DNA from: Tahibacter aquaticus
GTDB taxonomy: Bacteria; Pseudomonadota; Gammaproteobacteria; Xanthomonadales; Rhodanobacteraceae
Assembly: GCF_004363655.1 (NCBI RefSeq)
Contig: NZ_SNZH01000016.1
Coordinates: 124,001-188,000 of the forward strand
Direction of reading: 5' to 3'
DNA: 64,000 bases
Both the position numbers and the translations under genes were made by a program. The number at the start of each line of letters is the position of its first letter. Positions within the stretch are counted from its first letter, which is position 1. Positions 49,893 through 57,986 of this stretch are shown here, piece after piece. A model generated the notes under the pieces. That model had not been told where the DNA came from. It worked only from the letters and a program-made list of their open reading frames with translations, and did no database searches.

Positions 49893-50255
49893 ATGCCTCA
49901 GACCTTCAATCGCGCCGACCGCATTTCCGCCGAGCTGCGCCGCCTGGTTGGTACGATGGTGCACGAAGTCGTACGCGACAACGCACTGCCTTCGGTCAGC
50001 GTGTCCGATGTGGAAGCCTCGCGCGAGCTCGACAGCGCGACGGTCTACGTCACGGCCCTGCTGTCCGAGCAGGGGCCGCCGGCGGTCAAGCTGCTCAATG
50101 GCATGGCCAAGGATTTCCGCCGCGAGCTGTCGCGCATGATGCGGCTGCGCCGCGTGCCGGAACTGCGTTTCAAATACGATGATTCGGTCGACAAGGGCGA
50201 ACGCATCGAGCAGTTGCTGCGCGCCGACAAGGAACGCGGTCCCGCGTCGGAGTGA
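49893..50255 (+). CDS. rbfA: Ribosome-binding factor A
   Basis: 120 residues, single KH-like domain. It helps 16S rRNA 5'-end processing and 30S maturation, especially in the cold. Start MPQTFNRADRISAELRRLV chosen at ATG 49893 by family N-terminus. The segment LRRVPELRFKYDDSVDKGERIEQLL is characteristic. The 243-bp gap to infB is larger than usual and highly structured. In relatives truB would follow directly; here the sigma/kinase island intervenes on the opposite strand. Confidence 0.95.
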   Translation: MPQTFNRADRISAELRRLVGTMVHEVVRDNALPSVSVSDVEASRELDSATVYVTALLSEQGPPAVKLLNGMAKDFRRELSRMMRLRRVPELRFKYDDSVDKGERIEQLLRADKERGPASE

Positions 50256-50260
50256 TGCCC

Positions 50261-50281
50261 GCCCTCCCGCAACGGGAGGGC
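50261..50281. terminator. Perfect GC hairpin after rbfA
   Basis: GCCCTCCCG and CGGGAGGGC form a 9-bp perfect stem with a CAA loop, between the convergent rbfA and the small secreted-protein gene. There is no T-run on either side, so if it terminates, it does so without the canonical tail. Confidence 0.55.
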
Positions 50282-50295
50282 AGGCGCTCATACGG

Positions 50296-50727
50296 TCATT
50301 GTCCGCAGCAGTACACGACGGTGCCCGGCATAGGCAGGTAGGCTTCCCAGGCGTCGCCGTTCTCGTTGCGCAGCCCGGGCAGGGTCGGCAGCGCGCCGTC
50401 GTAGGTGTCCGACTCGTAGTCGTCGATGATGAAATCGGAGGCTGAGTCCACCGGCGTGGAGATGACGCTGAAGTAGCGCGTGAGCTGCGTCGAGTACGAG
50501 CCATTCTGGTTGTTCTTCAGGATCAGGACGGAGTCGCCGACGTTGGCGCTCATGCTCGAGGCGACATCGATCGCAATCGTGGTCGAGGTTGCGGCGTTGC
50601 GCGGATTGCAGGTCATGCCCGGATGGTCGTTGCAGGCGAAGCGGAGTTCCTTCGCGGACGCGGCGGCGCCGCAGGCGAGCAGGGCCAGGCCGGCGAGGCT
50701 GGTGAGGGAACGGGCGAGAAGGTTCAT
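50296..50727 (-). CDS. Small secreted protein of unknown function
   Basis: 143 residues. ATG at 50727 has a good AAGGAAA site; the longer upstream frame is not protein-like. A signal peptide of about 24 residues (hydrophobic SLAGLALLACGAAASA, then KELRF) predicts export. LLACG is only lipobox-like and has a good Ala-x-Ala cleavage site downstream, so it is probably not a lipoprotein. The mature part has Cys pairs (FACNDHPGMTCN and a C-terminal VVYCCGQ) and a Ser/Thr/Asp-rich middle. No family is recognised. It is the last minus-strand gene of the sigma/kinase island, 142 bp after kinase 1, and could be a regulated target; that is a guess from position. Confidence 0.6.
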   Translation of the reverse strand: MNLLARSLTSLAGLALLACGAAASAKELRFACNDHPGMTCNPRNAATSTTIAIDVASSMSANVGDSVLILKNNQNGSYSTQLTRYFSVISTPVDSASDFIIDDYESDTYDGALPTLPGLRNENGDAWEAYLPMPGTVVYCCGQ

Positions 50728-50869
50728 CGGAAATTTCCTTGCGAATGGACGAAGGGGGCGCACACGCCACGCGTGCGCGCTGCCGGAAGCGGGCGCCGTT
50801 GTGATCGGTGCTGCGCTCCCATCCTGTCTATCGGCAACTACGCCAAAACTGGTCCATGCGGCTGCTGCT

Positions 50870-53497
50870 TCACAGGCCGATGGTTCTGGCGATGGTCTCG
50901 GCGCGCATGCGCACGTCATGCGGCCAGCGCGTCCATACGCGTAGCGTTGTCAGGATCTCCGGCGTCAGCCGGGCACGAGCGCCATCGAAGTCGTACAGGC
51001 GGAAACGCGCGTAGGCGATGTCGCCGTTGAGGTAGGCAACCTGTTGGCAGTCGCCGCAGGCCTCGATCATGTACGGCAACGCGCTTTCCGCAAACAGCGC
51101 CGCCTCGAAATAGTCACCGCTGGCAATCAGGGTTTCGGCCAGCGCCCGGCTGGTAAAGGCATGGTTTTCGCGCGATTCGGCCGGCGTGACCGCAAACGCC
51201 AGGCCAGCGAAACGCTTGGCCGCGGCATAGTCGTGGTAGTTGTTGCGATAGATCAGTGCCAGCGCATCGTAGTACGTCGCGGTACTGCGCTTCTCGTTAT
51301 TGAGCGTGAGCGAAATGCGCAATGCCTCGCGGACCAGCTGCTCGCCTTCGGGCGCACGGCCTATCTCGCTGTAGATGGTGCCGAGCTGTTCGAGCATATA
51401 TGCCAGCTCGGAATAGCTGTCGCCGTAGTTCTTGCGAAAGCCGGCAATGGCACGTTCGAGCACATCGATCGCGTCGTCGTTGCGGCGCAGCCGATAGTAG
51501 GCCTGTCCCAGGCTGCGCAGCGTGCCGATCACGGCAGCGTCGTCGTCGGGCAGGCGTTTGCGCTGCGTCGCGAGCAGGGTTTCCAGCAATACCAGCGCGT
51601 CGTCGGGAGCGCCGTTCGTGGACAGCTGCCGGGTCAGCATGTGCAGCACCGGCTCCAGGCGTGCCGGTGGTATGTCCGCACGCTGCCGTAACGCGTCATA
51701 GCTGCGGCGCAGATAGGCGATCGCCTGGGCCGGGTGCCCGGCGAAACGCAGGGTGTGGCCTTTGATCAGCGCAAGCCGTACCTCGGCATCGGTATCGCGG
51801 AACGCAGGATCGGCCGCGATCAGCGCTGCAGCAGCGTCGAGCGAGCCCGTCGCATCGCGATAGCGACTTTCCAAGGCCGCCAGCTCGGCATCCACGGCGT
51901 GCTGGCGTACGCGGCTTTCGGTCGATGCGTCTGGCGTTCTCGCCATGGCATCGCGCGCCAGGCGTGCCTGCTCGTTGGCTGCGTCCATCATATCGAGGCG
52001 GATGTACAGCTGCGCCAACGTCTGCGCCACGGCCGCCGTCAGCGCCGTGTCGCTGGGCGGCACGCTGCCTAGTGAGCGGGCGGCGCTTTGCAGCAGCTCG
52101 CTTGCGCGCACGTCGCGGCTGCGTGTCTTGAACACCGCTGCGTTCTCGAACGCGTTGACCAGAAATTCGACTACGCCGCGCGCGTGGTCGCGTTCGTGCT
52201 CGGCCACGGCGCGTGCGGCGATGGCCCGGCGCGATTGCTGGACCGTCATGCCAATGGCAGCGATGGCGACGATAGTGGCCAGCAGCGCGATACCGACCGC
52301 GGCCTGATTGCGCCGCACGAAGCAGCGCAGGCGATAGCCGCGTTCGCGCGCACGCTGCGCAATTGGCCGCGCGCCGAGCACATTGCGCACGTCCTCGGCG
52401 AGCGCGTCGACCGACCCGTAGCGGTCGTCCGGCGGCTTGCGCAGGGTCTTGGCGGCGATGAGATCGAGATCGCCGCGCAGCGCTGCGGCGAGCGAGGTGG
52501 CGTCGGCATGGCCGCGCCGTGTCCAGCTGCCGTCGCTGCGCGCGACCGAGCGGCTGGGCGGCGGCGGATCTTCTTTCAGGATGCGTTCGACCACGGTTTC
52601 GCGCGCCTGGTCGGTGAAGTCGAACGGTTTGCATCCACAAAGCAACTCGTACAGAAGGCAGCCGAGACCGTAGATATCGGTGGCGACGCCGGTGGTGCGG
52701 CCGGCCACTTGCTCGGGTGCGGCGCAATCGGGCGAGAAGAAGCCGCCGTCGAGTGTTGCATCGGTAGCGGCGACACCGTCGGTCGCCTTGGCGATGCCGA
52801 AGTCGAGCAAGCGCACGCGGCCGTCGCGGTCGACCAGGATATTGCCGGGCTTCAGGTCGCGATGCAGCACGAAGCGCCGGTGCGCGTAGGCGACCGCATC
52901 GCAGACGCGCAGGAACAGCGCCAGCCGTGCCGGCAAGGTGAGCCTGTGCTGGTCGCAGTAGTGCGTGATGCGTTCGCCGTCGACGTATTCCATGGCGAAG
53001 TAGGGCCGGCCGTCGGCGAGTTCGCCGGCATCGATCAGTCGCGCGATGTCCGGATGGTCCAGCCCGGCCAGGATGGCGCGTTCGCGCCGCAACTGCTCGA
53101 CCAGGCGGCCGTCGCGCAAAGCCAGCGGCACCACTTTCAGTGCCACGTGCTGCGGGCGTCCGTCGACGTCGCGCGTAGCCAGGAACACGCTGCCCATGCC
53201 ACCGCTGCCGAGTAGCGACTCGATGCGGTAGCTGCCGATCTCGGCACCGGGCAGCAGGCGGTCGTCGCGAGACAGCTCGTGCACTGCCTGCGCCACCAGC
53301 GCGGCGCCGGGCACGGCGTCCTGCGTCGACAGGTACTCGTCGTGGATCGTGAGCAGGCGCCGCACGGCGACAACGACGGCGCTATCGCCAGAGGCCGCGT
53401 CGATGAAGCCTGCACGCGCTGGTCCGGGCTGTTCGAGCGCCTGGTCGAACAGGTGCTGCACCTGGCGCCAATGCGTGGTGTCGGTCGCAGGTTTCAT
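50870..53497 (-). CDS. Membrane Ser/Thr protein kinase with C-terminal TPR-type sensor (copy 1)
   Basis: 875 residues. A helical N-terminal region (1-85) precedes the kinase domain (about 91-375). Glycine loop is LGSGGMGSVFLA; Lys121 in VALKVV; catalytic HRDLKPGN with Asp214 and Asn219; DFG at 232-234; APE at 260-262, so it should be active. One membrane helix follows (about 401-420). The C-terminal 450 residues are helical repeats of TPR type (for example LRSLGQAYYRLRRNDDAIDVLERAI), predicted outside the cytoplasm. The start overlaps the sigma factor stop as ATGA (53494-53497). Sigma factors of this ECF group are typically encoded beside such kinases, and the kinase is thought to regulate its sigma partner by phosphorylation. 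Confidence 0.9.
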   Translation of the reverse strand: MKPATDTTHWRQVQHLFDQALEQPGPARAGFIDAASGDSAVVVAVRRLLTIHDEYLSTQDAVPGAALVAQAVHELSRDDRLLPGAEIGSYRIESLLGSGGMGSVFLATRDVDGRPQHVALKVVPLALRDGRLVEQLRRERAILAGLDHPDIARLIDAGELADGRPYFAMEYVDGERITHYCDQHRLTLPARLALFLRVCDAVAYAHRRFVLHRDLKPGNILVDRDGRVRLLDFGIAKATDGVAATDATLDGGFFSPDCAAPEQVAGRTTGVATDIYGLGCLLYELLCGCKPFDFTDQARETVVERILKEDPPPPSRSVARSDGSWTRRGHADATSLAAALRGDLDLIAAKTLRKPPDDRYGSVDALAEDVRNVLGARPIAQRARERGYRLRCFVRRNQAAVGIALLATIVAIAAIGMTVQQSRRAIAARAVAEHERDHARGVVEFLVNAFENAAVFKTRSRDVRASELLQSAARSLGSVPPSDTALTAAVAQTLAQLYIRLDMMDAANEQARLARDAMARTPDASTESRVRQHAVDAELAALESRYRDATGSLDAAAALIAADPAFRDTDAEVRLALIKGHTLRFAGHPAQAIAYLRRSYDALRQRADIPPARLEPVLHMLTRQLSTNGAPDDALVLLETLLATQRKRLPDDDAAVIGTLRSLGQAYYRLRRNDDAIDVLERAIAGFRKNYGDSYSELAYMLEQLGTIYSEIGRAPEGEQLVREALRISLTLNNEKRSTATYYDALALIYRNNYHDYAAAKRFAGLAFAVTPAESRENHAFTSRALAETLIASGDYFEAALFAESALPYMIEACGDCQQVAYLNGDIAYARFRLYDFDGARARLTPEILTTLRVWTRWPHDVRMRAETIARTIGL

Positions 53498-54087
53498 GCG
53501 GTGTCGGCCAGCTGTTCGTGCAGCCAGGCGCGCGCGAATTGCCAGCAGCGCTTGGCGGTGGAGGCGGAATAGCCCGCCGTGTCCGCTGCCTCGTGGATGG
53601 ACAGGCCGGCAAAGAAGCGCAATTCGACCAGCTTGGCGGCGCGGCTGTCGATGCGGGCAAGCTGTGTCAGCAGCCGGTCGACATCGAGCAGGCCTATGCC
53701 TTCGGGGGCCGTGGGCAGATCGTCGATGGCGGCCAGCGTGACCCGCTCCAGACCGCCGCCGCGCTTCTGCGCCTGCCGTTCGCGGCAGATATCGACCAGC
53801 ACGTTGCGGATGGTCAGCGCCGCGACGGCATAGAAATGGCGGCGGTGGTTGTAGTCCGCGTCGTGCGCAGCGAACAGGCGCAGATAGCTTTCATGCACCA
53901 GTTCGGTCGGACTCAGTGTGATGGCGGCGCCGCGCAGGCTGCGCCGCGCGAGGGCCTGCAGCAGCGGATAGACTGCTTCGACAAGCGCGGATTCGGCGGC
54001 GGAATCGCCGGCGCGCCAGCGCGTCAGCAGTTGCGTGATGGCGCCGGTCTCGTCCGGTGTGCAGGGCTGGGCTGGTTTGTGGTCCAT
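53494..54087 (-). CDS. ECF sigma factor of the kinase-linked type
   Basis: 197 residues, sigma-2 plus sigma-4 only. Region 2 is AITQLLTRWRAGDSAAESALVEAVYP to RRHFYAVAALTIRNVLVDICRER in outline, with TELVHESYLRLF. Region 4 is SRAAKLVELRFFAGLSIHEAADTAGYSASTAKRCW in blocks. The long helix containing LSPTELVHE is typical of the ECF group whose genes adjoin Ser/Thr kinase genes and which have no membrane anti-sigma factor. It is coupled to kinase 1 by an ATGA overlap. The 73-bp spacer upstream follows kinase 2, so all three genes may be one transcript. Confidence 0.9.
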   Translation of the reverse strand: MDHKPAQPCTPDETGAITQLLTRWRAGDSAAESALVEAVYPLLQALARRSLRGAAITLSPTELVHESYLRLFAAHDADYNHRRHFYAVAALTIRNVLVDICRERQAQKRGGGLERVTLAAIDDLPTAPEGIGLLDVDRLLTQLARIDSRAAKLVELRFFAGLSIHEAADTAGYSASTAKRCWQFARAWLHEQLADTA

Positions 54088-54160
54088 GAGTCAATAATCG
54101 AAGTGGCGCGGCCTGGGTGATCAGCCGCCAGCGCGGCAGGATGGTTGCGCGTCGGCTGCC

Positions 54161-56791
54161 TCAGATCCCTATCGTCCTGGCGACGGTCTCGGCATGCAGG
54201 CGCACATCGTGCGGCCAGCGCGTCCATACACGCAATGTCGTGAGAATCTCTGGCGTCAGCCGCGTGCGTGCGCCGTCGAAGTCATACAGGCGGAAACGCG
54301 CATAGGCGATATCGCCCGTCAGGTAAGCGACCTGCTGGCAGTTGCCGCACGACTCGACCATGTATTGCAGCGCGCTTTCCGCATACAGCACGGCTTCGAA
54401 GTAGTCGCCGCTGGCGATCAGTGTTTCGGCCAGTGTGCGGCTGGTATAGGCGAGGCTGTCGCGGGATTCGGCCGGCGTGACCGCAAATGCCAGTCCCGCG
54501 AAGCGCTTTGCGGCGGCGTAGTCGCCATGGCCATTGCGATAGACCAGTGCAAGCGAATCGTAGATGAGCGCCGCGCCGCGCTTGTTGGTGTCGATCGCGT
54601 GCGTGATCCGCAACCCCTCGCGCATCAGTTGTTCGCCCTCCTGCGCACGCCCCTCCTCCAGATAGAGATTGCCGAGCAAGTTATACATTGCCGCCAGTTC
54701 CGAGTACGTGTCGCCGTAGTACTTGCGCTGGCCGGCGATGGCGCGCTCGAGCACGTCGATCGCCAAGTCGTTGCGACGCAGGCGATAGTAAGCCTGCCCC
54801 AGGCTCTGCAACGTGGGGATCAAGGCAGGGTCGTCTTCAGGCAAGCGTTTGCGCTGTGACGCGAGCAGGGTTTCGAGCAGTTCCAGCGCGTCGTCGGCAT
54901 TTCCGTTCAACGAGAGCTGTCGGGTGAGCCGGTGCAGCAACGGTTCCAGGCGCGACGGCTGTATATCCGCCCGTCGCCGCAATGTGTCGTAGCTGCGGCG
55001 CAGATAGGCGATGGCCTCGGCGGGATGTCCGTCCAGGCGCAAGGTGCGGGCCTTGACCAGCGCAAGCCGCACTTCGGCGTCAGGATCGCTGTAGCTGGAA
55101 TCCGCCGCGATCCGTGCGGCAGCGTCGTCGATCGCCCGTGTTGCGTCGCGATAGCGGCTTGCCAGAGAAGCCAGCTCGGCGTCGATGACATCCTGGCGCA
55201 CGCGCTGTTCACTCGATGCATCCGGTGTTTTTGCCATCGCTTCCCGCGCCAGCTGCGCCTGCCCCTCGGCCGGCTCGATCATGTCGAGTCGGATGTACAA
55301 CTGTGCCAGTGTCTGCGCCACTGCTGCCTTCAACGCCGTATCGTCCGGCGACACGCTGCCCAGCGATCGCGCGGCACTCTGCAGCAGTTCGCTGGCACTG
55401 ACGTCGCGGCTGCGTGTCTTGAAGGCCGAGGCGTTCTCGAACGCGTTGACCAGAAACTCGACCACCCCGCGCGCGTGATCGCGCTCGTGCTCGGCCACGG
55501 CGCGTGCGGCGACGGCGCGGCGCGACTGCTGGACCGTCATGGCGATCGCGGCGATCGCGACAACGCCGGCCAGCACAGCGGCGCCGACCGAAACGCGATG
55601 TCGTCGCACGAAGCAGCGCAGGCGATAGCCGCGTTCGCGCGCACGCTGTGCGATCGGGCGCGCGGCGAGCACACTGCGCACGTCCTCGGCCAGCGCGTCG
55701 ACCGAACCGTAGCGGTCGTCCGGCGGCTTGCGCAGCGTCTTGGCGACAATGAGATCGAGATCGCCGCGCAGCGCAGCGACGAGCGAGGCAGCGTCGGCAT
55801 GGCCGCGCCGCGTCCAGCTGCCGTCGCTGCGCACGATGGCGCGACTGGGCAGCGGCGGATCTTCGCTCAAGATGCGTTCGACGATGGTTGTGCGCGCTTG
55901 CCCGGCGAAGTCGAACGGCTTGCATCCACAAAGCAATTCGTACAAAAGACTGCCGAGCCCGTAGATGTCGGTGGCGACGCCGGTGTTGCGGCCGGCCACT
56001 TGTTCGGGTGCGGCGCAGTCGGGCGAGAAGAAGCCGCTGTCGATCGTCGCGTCGGTGGCAACGACGCCATCGGTGGCCTTGGCGATGCCGAAGTCGAGCA
56101 GGCGCACGCGGCCGTCGTGGTCGACCAGGATATTGCCGGGCTTCAGATCGCGGTGCAGTACGAAGCGCCGGTGCGCATGGGCGACTGCGTCGCAGACGCG
56201 CAGAAACAGCGCCAGCCGGGCGGGCAATGCCAGGGCACGCTGGTCGCAGTAATGTGTGATGCGTTCGCCGTCGACGTATTCCATGGCGAAGTAGGGCCGG
56301 CCGTCGGCGAGTTCGCCCGCATCGATCAGTCGCGCGATGTCCGGATGATCCAGGCCGGCGAGGATGGCGCGTTCGCGCCGCAGGTGTTCGACGAGGCGGC
56401 CGTGACGCAAGGCCAGCGGTACCACTTTCAGCGCCACGCGCTGCGGCCGTCCGTCGACGTTGCGCGTGGCCAGGAACACATTGCCCATGCCGCCGCTGCC
56501 GAGCAGCGAATCGATGCGGTAGCTGCCGATCTCGGCGCCGGGCAGCAGGCGTTCGTCCTGCTGGGCGAGTGAGCGTACCGCCTCTGCAACCAGCGCCGCG
56601 CCGGGCATGACGTCCTGCGTCGCCAGGTAGTCGTCGTGGAGGGCGAGCAGCCGGCGCACGGCGTCGGCAATCGCCGGGTCAGCCGCAGCGGTGTCGATGA
56701 ATGTATGGCGGGACTGTTCGGGCTGCTCGATCGCGGCGTCGAACAGGCGTTGTACGTTGCGCCAGTGCGCAGTGTCGGTCGTTGGAGTCAT
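54161..56791 (-). CDS. Membrane Ser/Thr protein kinase with C-terminal TPR-type sensor (copy 2)
   Basis: 876 residues, a close paralogue of the gene at 50870-53497, with the same order: N-terminal helices, kinase domain with all catalytic motifs (Lys122, HRDLKPGN with Asp215, DFG, APEQ), one membrane helix, then helical repeats. Over the 204 residues from the glycine-loop strand onward the two proteins differ at 16 positions by hand count; the N-terminal 60 residues and the repeats differ more. The start overlaps the stop of a 35-codon frame (56788-56895) that ends like the sigma factor. The sensor repeats diverging faster than the kinase domain would suit recognition of different ligands. 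Confidence 0.9.
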   Translation of the reverse strand: MTPTTDTAHWRNVQRLFDAAIEQPEQSRHTFIDTAAADPAIADAVRRLLALHDDYLATQDVMPGAALVAEAVRSLAQQDERLLPGAEIGSYRIDSLLGSGGMGNVFLATRNVDGRPQRVALKVVPLALRHGRLVEHLRRERAILAGLDHPDIARLIDAGELADGRPYFAMEYVDGERITHYCDQRALALPARLALFLRVCDAVAHAHRRFVLHRDLKPGNILVDHDGRVRLLDFGIAKATDGVVATDATIDSGFFSPDCAAPEQVAGRNTGVATDIYGLGSLLYELLCGCKPFDFAGQARTTIVERILSEDPPLPSRAIVRSDGSWTRRGHADAASLVAALRGDLDLIVAKTLRKPPDDRYGSVDALAEDVRSVLAARPIAQRARERGYRLRCFVRRHRVSVGAAVLAGVVAIAAIAMTVQQSRRAVAARAVAEHERDHARGVVEFLVNAFENASAFKTRSRDVSASELLQSAARSLGSVSPDDTALKAAVAQTLAQLYIRLDMIEPAEGQAQLAREAMAKTPDASSEQRVRQDVIDAELASLASRYRDATRAIDDAAARIAADSSYSDPDAEVRLALVKARTLRLDGHPAEAIAYLRRSYDTLRRRADIQPSRLEPLLHRLTRQLSLNGNADDALELLETLLASQRKRLPEDDPALIPTLQSLGQAYYRLRRNDLAIDVLERAIAGQRKYYGDTYSELAAMYNLLGNLYLEEGRAQEGEQLMREGLRITHAIDTNKRGAALIYDSLALVYRNGHGDYAAAKRFAGLAFAVTPAESRDSLAYTSRTLAETLIASGDYFEAVLYAESALQYMVESCGNCQQVAYLTGDIAYARFRLYDFDGARTRLTPEILTTLRVWTRWPHDVRLHAETVARTIGI

Positions 56792-56895
56792 GCGGTGTCG
56801 GCGAGTGGGTCGTGCAGACGCTGGAAAACGATGAGGGTAGGGCGCGGCGCGACGAGCGCGGCAAATTGCGCCACAACCGGGCGCCGCTCCTGCAT
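56788..56895 (-). pseudogene. Remnant of a second ECF sigma gene ahead of kinase 2
   Basis: A 35-codon frame from ATG 56895 ends LHDPLADTA, against LHEQLADTA at the end of the intact sigma factor, and stops in the same ATGA overlap with the kinase start. The preceding 26 residues (MQERRPVVAQFAALVAPRPT onward) show no convincing sigma-4 match. What survives is thus the last nine or so codons, enough to keep translational coupling to the kinase. It may still be translated as a small leader peptide. It could also be read as a chance frame kept only for coupling. Confidence 0.65.
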
Positions 56896-57035
56896 GGATT
56901 GTCGTACATAGGGCACAGCCGGATTGGCGCTGCGGCGAAGGTCAGTCGCCGCCGTGCGCATTCCGTTGGCCGGTACCGATTCGCCGCGTGCGGCAAAGAT
57001 GACAGAATGGCCGGCTTCCGACGATTCTTTGGCGC

Positions 57036-57986
57036 ATGAGCAAGAAAAAAGACCCTACGCCCTGGCGCGAAGTACATGGCATCGTGCTGCTGGACAAGCC
57101 ATCGGGGCTTAGCTCCAACCAGGCGCTGCAGAAGGCGCGCCGCCTGTTCCTGGCGGACAAGGGCGGCCATACCGGCAGCCTGGACCCCCTGGCCACCGGC
57201 CTGCTGCCGCTGTGCTTCGGCGAAGCCACCAAGATCGCCGGTTACCTGCTCGGCGCGGCCAAGGCCTATCGAGCCACGGTACAGCTCGGTACGACCACGA
57301 CGACAGCGGATGCCGAAGGCGAAGTGCTGCTGCGCCGGCCGGTGCCGCCGCTGGATGCAAGCCGGATCGAGGCGGGGCTCGCGCGTCTGCGCGGCCGCAT
57401 CACCCAGGTGCCGCCGGTCTACAGTGCGATCAAGCTCGACGGCGTGCCGCTGTACCGCCGTGCCCGCGACGGCGAGGATGTCAGTGCCGCGCCGCGCGAG
57501 GTTGAGGTGTTCCGGCTCGACCTGCTGCTGCACCAGGGCGAACAGCTGGAGCTGGCCGTCGAATGCGGTTCCGGCACTTATGTGCGCAGTCTTGCCACCG
57601 ACCTGGGCGAATTCCTCGGCTGCGGTGCTCATCTCACCGCATTGCGGCGGACCTGGGTCGATCCGTTCCGTGACGCGACGGCCTGGACCTTGGATCACCT
57701 GGAAACCTTGCTGATGACCCAGGGCCGCGAATCCATCGATGCCTTGCTGCTGCCCACCGACGCTGGCCTGGCCAACCTGCCCCTGCGGGCGCTGGACGCG
57801 GCGCAGGCGCACCGCCTGGCCCTGGGCCAGCCGGTGCCCGGCATGGGGACTGCGGCTGAATTGTGCCGTGTACACGACGACAGCGGACATCTGCTTGCTC
57901 TGGGCGAGGTCGACGGTGCAGGTATTTTGCGCGTGCGCCGCGGTCTCAACCTGCCGCGCTCCGCAGTTCTGGCGGGCGCGTTTTGA
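57036..57986 (+). CDS. truB: tRNA pseudouridine(55) synthase
   Basis: 316 residues. It makes the T-loop pseudouridine 55 in tRNAs. HGIVLLDKPSGLSSNQALQK at the N-terminus; catalytic Asp50 in HTGSLDPLATGLLPLCFG; PPVYSAIKLDGVPLY; and a C-terminal PUA-like domain. No clear Shine-Dalgarno is seen before ATG 57036. It would normally follow rbfA directly; the 6.7-kb island at 50.3-56.9 kb separates them. The 140 bp upstream, shared with the divergent kinase 2, must hold both promoters, but no consensus is obvious. Confidence 0.96.
   Translation: MSKKKDPTPWREVHGIVLLDKPSGLSSNQALQKARRLFLADKGGHTGSLDPLATGLLPLCFGEATKIAGYLLGAAKAYRATVQLGTTTTTADAEGEVLLRRPVPPLDASRIEAGLARLRGRITQVPPVYSAIKLDGVPLYRRARDGEDVSAAPREVEVFRLDLLLHQGEQLELAVECGSGTYVRSLATDLGEFLGCGAHLTALRRTWVDPFRDATAWTLDHLETLLMTQGRESIDALLLPTDAGLANLPLRALDAAQAHRLALGQPVPGMGTAAELCRVHDDSGHLLALGEVDGAGILRVRRGLNLPRSAVLAGAF

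Follow-up and report, generated by a model that had tools for sequence, protein, structure and literature searches.

Sigma factors of the ECF43 group of extracytoplasmic function (ECF) sigma factors have as their hallmark a Hanks-type kinase encoded alongside, and in Xanthomonas citri the ECF43 sigma factor EcfK is phosphorylated by such a kinase, PknS (PMC13147305). In a second ECF43 system, EcfP-PknT of Vibrio parahaemolyticus, phosphorylation of a threonine in region 2.2, which stands in place of acidic residues, activates the sigma factor (PMC8999054). In what these accounts describe, one kinase serves one ECF43 sigma factor, EcfK having one kinase per sigma factor (PMC13147305) and EcfP a single kinase (PMC8999054). 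In contrast, the 64-kb stretch of Tahibacter aquaticus DNA analysed here (the window, G000:C16:124001-188000, from a genome of 7.27 Mb in 82 contigs) contains, between rbfA and truB, one sigma factor gene (S1) flanked by two kinase genes (K1 and K2). No paper on two kinases sharing one ECF43 sigma factor was found among the matches listed in the openly licensed literature (titles and abstract openings). By analogy with the known systems, the likeliest function of this locus would be that of two receptors, with related and diverging sensors, acting on one sigma factor.

The three genes are transcribed from the minus strand in the order K2, S1, K1, and all their reading frames are open and intact. 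The features on which the argument turns are as follows.

50870..53497, minus strand: K1, Hanks-type Ser/Thr kinase, 875 aa
53494..54087, minus strand: S1, ECF sigma factor, 197 aa, matching PF07638 and TIGR02999
54088..54160, minus strand: spacer between K2 and the sigma gene, 73 bp
54161..56791, minus strand: K2, second Hanks-type kinase, 876 aa, catalytic motifs intact
56788..56817, minus strand: echo of the sigma gene 3' end (26 bp) with the ATGA overlap
56788..56895, minus strand: putative 35-codon frame ending LHDPLADTA, overlapping the K2 start

By domain models S1 is a Sigma70_ECF / X6 type sigma factor, with matches to PF07638 (3.7e-43, 148 bits) and TIGR02999 (1.8e-55, 187.7 bits; cut-off 126.15); we take these models to correspond to ECF43, and S1 looks like an ECF43-type sigma factor. 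A kinase encoded alongside is also present, as K1 overlaps S1 by ATGA, a coupling reported in the initial annotation and confirmed here with both genes intact, and K2 ends 73 bp upstream. In region 2.2, S1 carries Thr62 in the motif SPTE, in place of the DxxD acidic residues and comparable to QATE of EcfK (PMC13147305), with the register to EcfK T51 taken from the printed motifs rather than from an alignment with EcfK. Judged from sequence, Thr62 is a candidate counterpart of the EcfP threonine that stands in place of acidic residues, and S1, like EcfK, keeps an acidic residue beside the threonine, whereas the EcfP motif is STTA (PMC8999054). When 20 of the 29 sigma places in the genome were aligned, threonine occupied the acceptor column in 18 of the 20, S1 included.

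K1 matches PF00069 (2e-40) and TPR_12 (1.2e-14), and is laid out as an N-terminal segment (residues 1-87), a kinase domain (~88-385), a hydrophobic stretch (399-417), and a C-terminal tetratricopeptide repeat (TPR) domain. Each kinase has a single hydrophobic 19-mer, at 399-417 in K1 and at 402-420 in K2, and both retain the catalytic motifs GSGGMG, VALK, HRDLKPGN, DFG, and APE. Thus both have the PknS-type layout of N-terminal extension, kinase, single transmembrane segment, and TPR region, with the topology predicted from Pfam and hydropathy. PknS itself, a Hanks kinase that spans the membrane, has an N-terminal extension (~83 aa) and a TPR region in the periplasm (PMC13147305), the arrangement predicted here.

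K1 and K2 are identical at 703 of 876 residues (80%) in a full-length alignment and at ~81% of the DNA, and in the kinase domain the identity rises to 90%. Synonymous divergence (dS) between them is 0.33 in the kinase part versus 0.79 in the C-terminal part, and fourfold-degenerate sites differ at 33/170 positions in aa 88-390 versus 97/257 elsewhere (p = 6e-5); in window scans assessed by shuffling the sites, p lay between 0.0004 and 0.021 across six window sizes. In contrast, no such difference is seen against the kinase at the same site in G002, one of the seven same-genus genomes (G001-G007) used for comparison, either at fourfold sites (0.37 v 0.42 for K1, p = 0.44; 0.36 v 0.42 for K2, p = 0.32) or in window scans (p 0.18 to 0.81, three sizes each). 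Pairwise omega between K1 and K2 is 0.31 in the N-terminal, 0.16 in the kinase, and 0.18 in the C-terminal part. Positive selection on the sensor was considered and is unsupported, omega being at most 0.58 in 18 windows of 50 columns.

In the mechanism that we propose, an ancestral ECF43-like sigma-kinase pair would have stood between rbfA and truB, and in the window lineage this pair would have been tandemly duplicated and its first sigma gene lost save for the last 26 bp, leaving K2-sigma-K1. K1 and K2 would be membrane receptors, each with a cytoplasmic kinase and, from the predicted topology, a periplasmic TPR sensor, and each kinase, on its own signal, would phosphorylate the same sigma factor at Thr62 in region 2.2 and so turn on the same regulon. 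By analogy with EcfK-PknS and EcfP-PknT, phosphorylation of a threonine where other sigma factors have acidic residues would let the sigma factor bind RNA polymerase. Occasional gene conversion would hold the kinase domains of K1 and K2 close to one another as the outer domains drift apart. Convergence on S1 is supported indirectly by the lower synonymous divergence of the kinase domain, the low pairwise omega, and the intactness of both kinases. We lean slightly towards this account as a whole, that is, pair duplication, sigma loss, two receptors on one sigma factor, and gene conversion of the kinase domain. Under it, the kinase-sigma-kinase locus would be a natural test of how several receptors are wired to one sigma factor, and of gene conversion as a means of maintaining that wiring.

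The initial annotation had proposed that a sigma-kinase pair was duplicated and one sigma gene then deleted. A duplication is certain, given two kinases of 80% identity, and loss of a sigma gene from beside K2 is likely only, 26 bp being what remains of it. K2 does start in the same ATGA context as K1, as had been noticed, and the frame before it ends LHDPLADTA, compared to LHEQLADTA in the sigma factor. The homology at DNA level covers 53523-50858 and 56817-54149, starting 26 bp before the end of the sigma gene and stopping ~12 bp beyond the kinase stop. The resulting order, tail-K2-sigma-K1, fits pair duplication with loss of the upstream sigma gene better than a simple tandem copy of the kinase only, which would put the tail-bearing kinase downstream (sigma-K-tail-K); the order thus argues against such a copy.

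The site in relatives was compared by means of its flanks, in a neighbourhood of genes which we take, from their sequences, to be infB, rbfA, truB, rpsO, and pnp.

49893..50255, plus strand: rbfA, left flank, identified by translation and matches in relatives
56971..57016, no strand assigned: stretch near truB common to the window and G002 (score 43, 0/300 shuffles), probably truB upstream region and not sigma sequence
57036..57986, plus strand: truB, right flank, with matches in 41/41 genomes

In G002 the gap between rbfA and truB contains one kinase (63.7% identical to K2 and 64.7% to K1) and no sigma gene, and in G007 it contains one sigma gene (L056 1203-1805), 72% identical to S1 with the SPTE motif kept, its stop ~16 bp from the rbfA end and no kinase beside it. 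Neither gene is in the gap in G001, G003, G004, G005, or G006. Sigma and kinase therefore part company at this locus, and since G007 has the sigma gene alone and G002 the kinase alone, the ancestral site plausibly held both. The sigma factors of the window and G007 are about as similar (72%) as the two TruB proteins (71%), which is what vertical inheritance predicts. The simplest reading has the genes in the ancestor, inherited vertically and lost several times, the alternative being repeated insertion at one site. No traces of a lost module were detected in the 157-bp rbfA-truB gap of G005 (four tests, p 0.49 to 0.93). A tree of InfB, RbfA, TruB, NusA, and Pnp, calculated without NusA for G003 and G005 (short contigs) and without Pnp for G009, groups G007 with G004 (support 85-100), G002 with G005 (99-100), and the window genome with G003 (87-88), and gives weak support (43-64) to the root and to the placement of G006. 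Among 233 family genomes, with at most 4 kinase and at most 13 sigma candidates scored per genome and at the thresholds used, a kinase of >47% identity to K2 occurs only in the window genome and G002, and a sigma factor of >50% identity to S1 only in the window genome and G007. A scan of genome contigs with two peptide patterns for further relatives returned a single locus. The lone sigma gene of G007 and the lone kinase gene of G002 offer comparisons for each part without the other. As a separate observation, the RbfA tail RADxERGPA is common to the window genome, G002, G005, and G007, of which three have module genes at this locus, and the other four genomes have different RbfA tails, as read by eye from the DNA.

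Several results weigh against duplication of a whole pair in the window lineage. A second sigma gene at the site, which would have supported the deletion, was found in none of the seven same-genus genomes. DNA similarity upstream of the nine shared codons is at background level, the very outcome that the initial annotation had named as refuting its history; per ten bases upstream from the ATG, the matches number 10, 6, 7, 4, 1, 7, 5, 5, 4, and 2. Comparison with the sigma 5' flank of G007 revealed nothing like it before K2 (p = 0.99), and for the source of the ~150 bp before K2, only short weak matches were found in the genus among the matches listed, besides the window itself and the truB-proximal stretch of G002. 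The best tree of residues 391-875 joins K1 with the G002 kinase and not with K2 (support 64), and approximately unbiased (AU) tests on these residues keep all three rootings, so that the duplication could be older than the divergence from G002. The C-terminal dS between K1 and K2 is 0.79, compared to 0.83-0.89 to the G002 kinase. For the kinase part, the best tree joins K1 with K2, and the AU test rejects K1 with G002 (p = 0.011) and keeps K2 with G002 (p = 0.18). Two further searches were negative: with the 30 bases next to the ATG, where the echo lies, removed, no longer sigma remnant was detected before K2 (best alignment to the sigma gene, p = 0.68), and outside the truB-proximal stretch the K2 leader showed no homology to that of the G002 kinase (p = 0.62).

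The strongest alternative is that there was never a second sigma gene and that in a single ectopic event K1 was copied, with the final 26 bp of the sigma gene attached, into the interval that separates this gene from truB. The similar DNA does start within the sigma gene, 26 bp from its end, and stop ~12 bp past the kinase stop, and beside truB there is neither a sigma remnant nor a sigma 5' flank. The S1 spacer shows weak similarity to the region 5' of the lone G007 sigma gene (local alignment, p = 0.039; longer flank, p = 0.073), which slightly favours this alternative, as if K2 had been set before an undisturbed sigma gene. However, it requires a non-tandem insertion at an adjacent site, and we consider it somewhat unlikely.

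K2 might also be an orphan receptor that phosphorylates another sigma factor, or some other protein, rather than S1. Genome-wide there are 28 PF07638 and 48 PF00069 matches (E <= 1e-8), so that 27 other sigma factors are possible partners of K2, which tells against convergence on S1. Grouping at 5 kb places the 28 sigma genes in 26 clusters, each with at least one kinase, and leaves 19 of the 48 PF00069 matches alone, with no PF07638 or other PF00069 match within 5 kb. At the site itself G002 retains one such kinase on its own, and a distant kinase of the type (~40%) lies elsewhere in G006, where the 15 kb examined contained no S1-like match. Against these points stand the 90% identity of the two kinase domains, with dS under half of that in the C-terminal part, and the end of K2 only 73 bp before S1, and a K2 that bypasses S1 seems unlikely to us. 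More than one kinase occurs in three of the 26 clusters, one of them counting a partial kinase, and the kinase-sigma-kinase order is found only at the window locus. The seven relatives have 24 to 47 PF00069 matches (E <= 1e-18) and 16 to 27 PF07638 matches (E <= 1e-12). Elsewhere in the window genome, a partial kinase lies between a sigma-kinase pair and another sigma gene (G000:C7 ~50.0-50.4 kb, L139 5894-6361), and two tandem sigma genes lie upstream of one kinase (G000:C7 ~72-77 kb, L140 2454-7665), the reverse of the stoichiometry at the window locus.

Other arrays in which a sigma gene has two or more PknS-like kinases nearby are comparable to the window locus. In the sigma-K-K locus of the window genome (G000:C1 ~537-544 kb), identity is 0.81 in the kinase v 0.57 in the C-terminal part, with a fourfold contrast that is not significant (p = 0.16). 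In G007 (G007:C1 ~133-141 kb, L123 5247-13432), three tandem PknS-like kinases, A7, B7, and C7, lie ~1.5 kb downstream of a sigma-kinase pair (sigma-K...K-K-K), with values of up to 0.99 v 0.51: identity between B7 and C7 is 99% over the kinase domain and drops to 51% in the C-terminal part, the boundaries falling sharply near residues 68 and 392. Unlike at the window locus, the kinases of these arrays were found downstream of the sigma gene rather than on both sides, and a sigma-tail echo was not searched for there.

From these patterns we infer that gene conversion caused the likeness of the kinase domains in K1/K2 and in the G007 array. The low synonymous divergence of the kinase domain might instead reflect codon constraint or misalignment of the C-terminal part. 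For loci picked by eye among the matches listed in the genus, p was below 0.001 in four of the 12 same-locus kinase pairs (K1/K2 and the three pairs among A7, B7, and C7) and below 0.01 in two more; the other six had no contrast at 0.01, which speaks for this alternative. Kinase regions are somewhat lower in fourfold divergence in cross-locus comparisons too, where one of 24 pairs gave p < 0.001, three more < 0.01, and one more a value that prints as 0.01, so that codon usage in general, or poor alignment of diverged C-termini, does have some effect. However, K1 and K2 show no contrast against the G002 kinase, and the drop from 99% to 51% in B7/C7 is sharply bounded, although a second similar block at 443-517 indicates that the likeness there is not confined to the kinase domain. 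An origin in codon usage or alignment alone is, in our judgement, improbable. The idea that tandem kinase pairs are homogenised as a rule was considered and is unsupported, given the six same-locus pairs without contrast. Rather more tentatively than the account of the window locus itself, and as something we think slightly less probable than its opposite, clustered receptor kinases with a common ECF sigma factor may evolve in concert in this genus, conversion recopying the kinase domain while the periplasmic sensors diverge. Such a locus would be a modular input stage carrying many signals to one sigma factor, and a sigma gene could be dropped, with that of a cluster mate serving all receptors.

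That the nine-codon echo is chance or a convergent translation-start context, rather than a sigma relic, is very improbable: it is short, local alignment that ignores its position beside the kinase start gives the weaker p = 0.013 for the same 26 bp (300 shuffles), and ATGA (five) or GTGA (one) overlaps of sigma with the next long frame occur at six of 20 sigma loci, S1 included, but the echo is contiguous with a homologous kinase gene, and a degenerate junction 30-mer, built from the two junctions after they had been seen, matches the 64-kb window (<=3 mismatches) only at 53494-53523 and 56788-56817, with two matches in 0/100 shuffles.

K2, S1, and K1 probably form one operon. A simple check for an AGGAGG-like ribosome-binding motif was negative before the ATG of K1, the ATG of K2, and the ATG of the 35-codon frame at position 56895, and therefore K2 may need translation of the upstream frame and K1 that of the sigma gene. 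A search for Sigma-70 promoters in 50250-57100 found 0 versus 0.7 expected. Between K1 and rbfA, a 143-aa open reading frame (50296-50727, minus strand) gives a sub-threshold Pfam match only (PF20381, 16.9 bits against 26) and has, by eye, a signal-like N-terminus.

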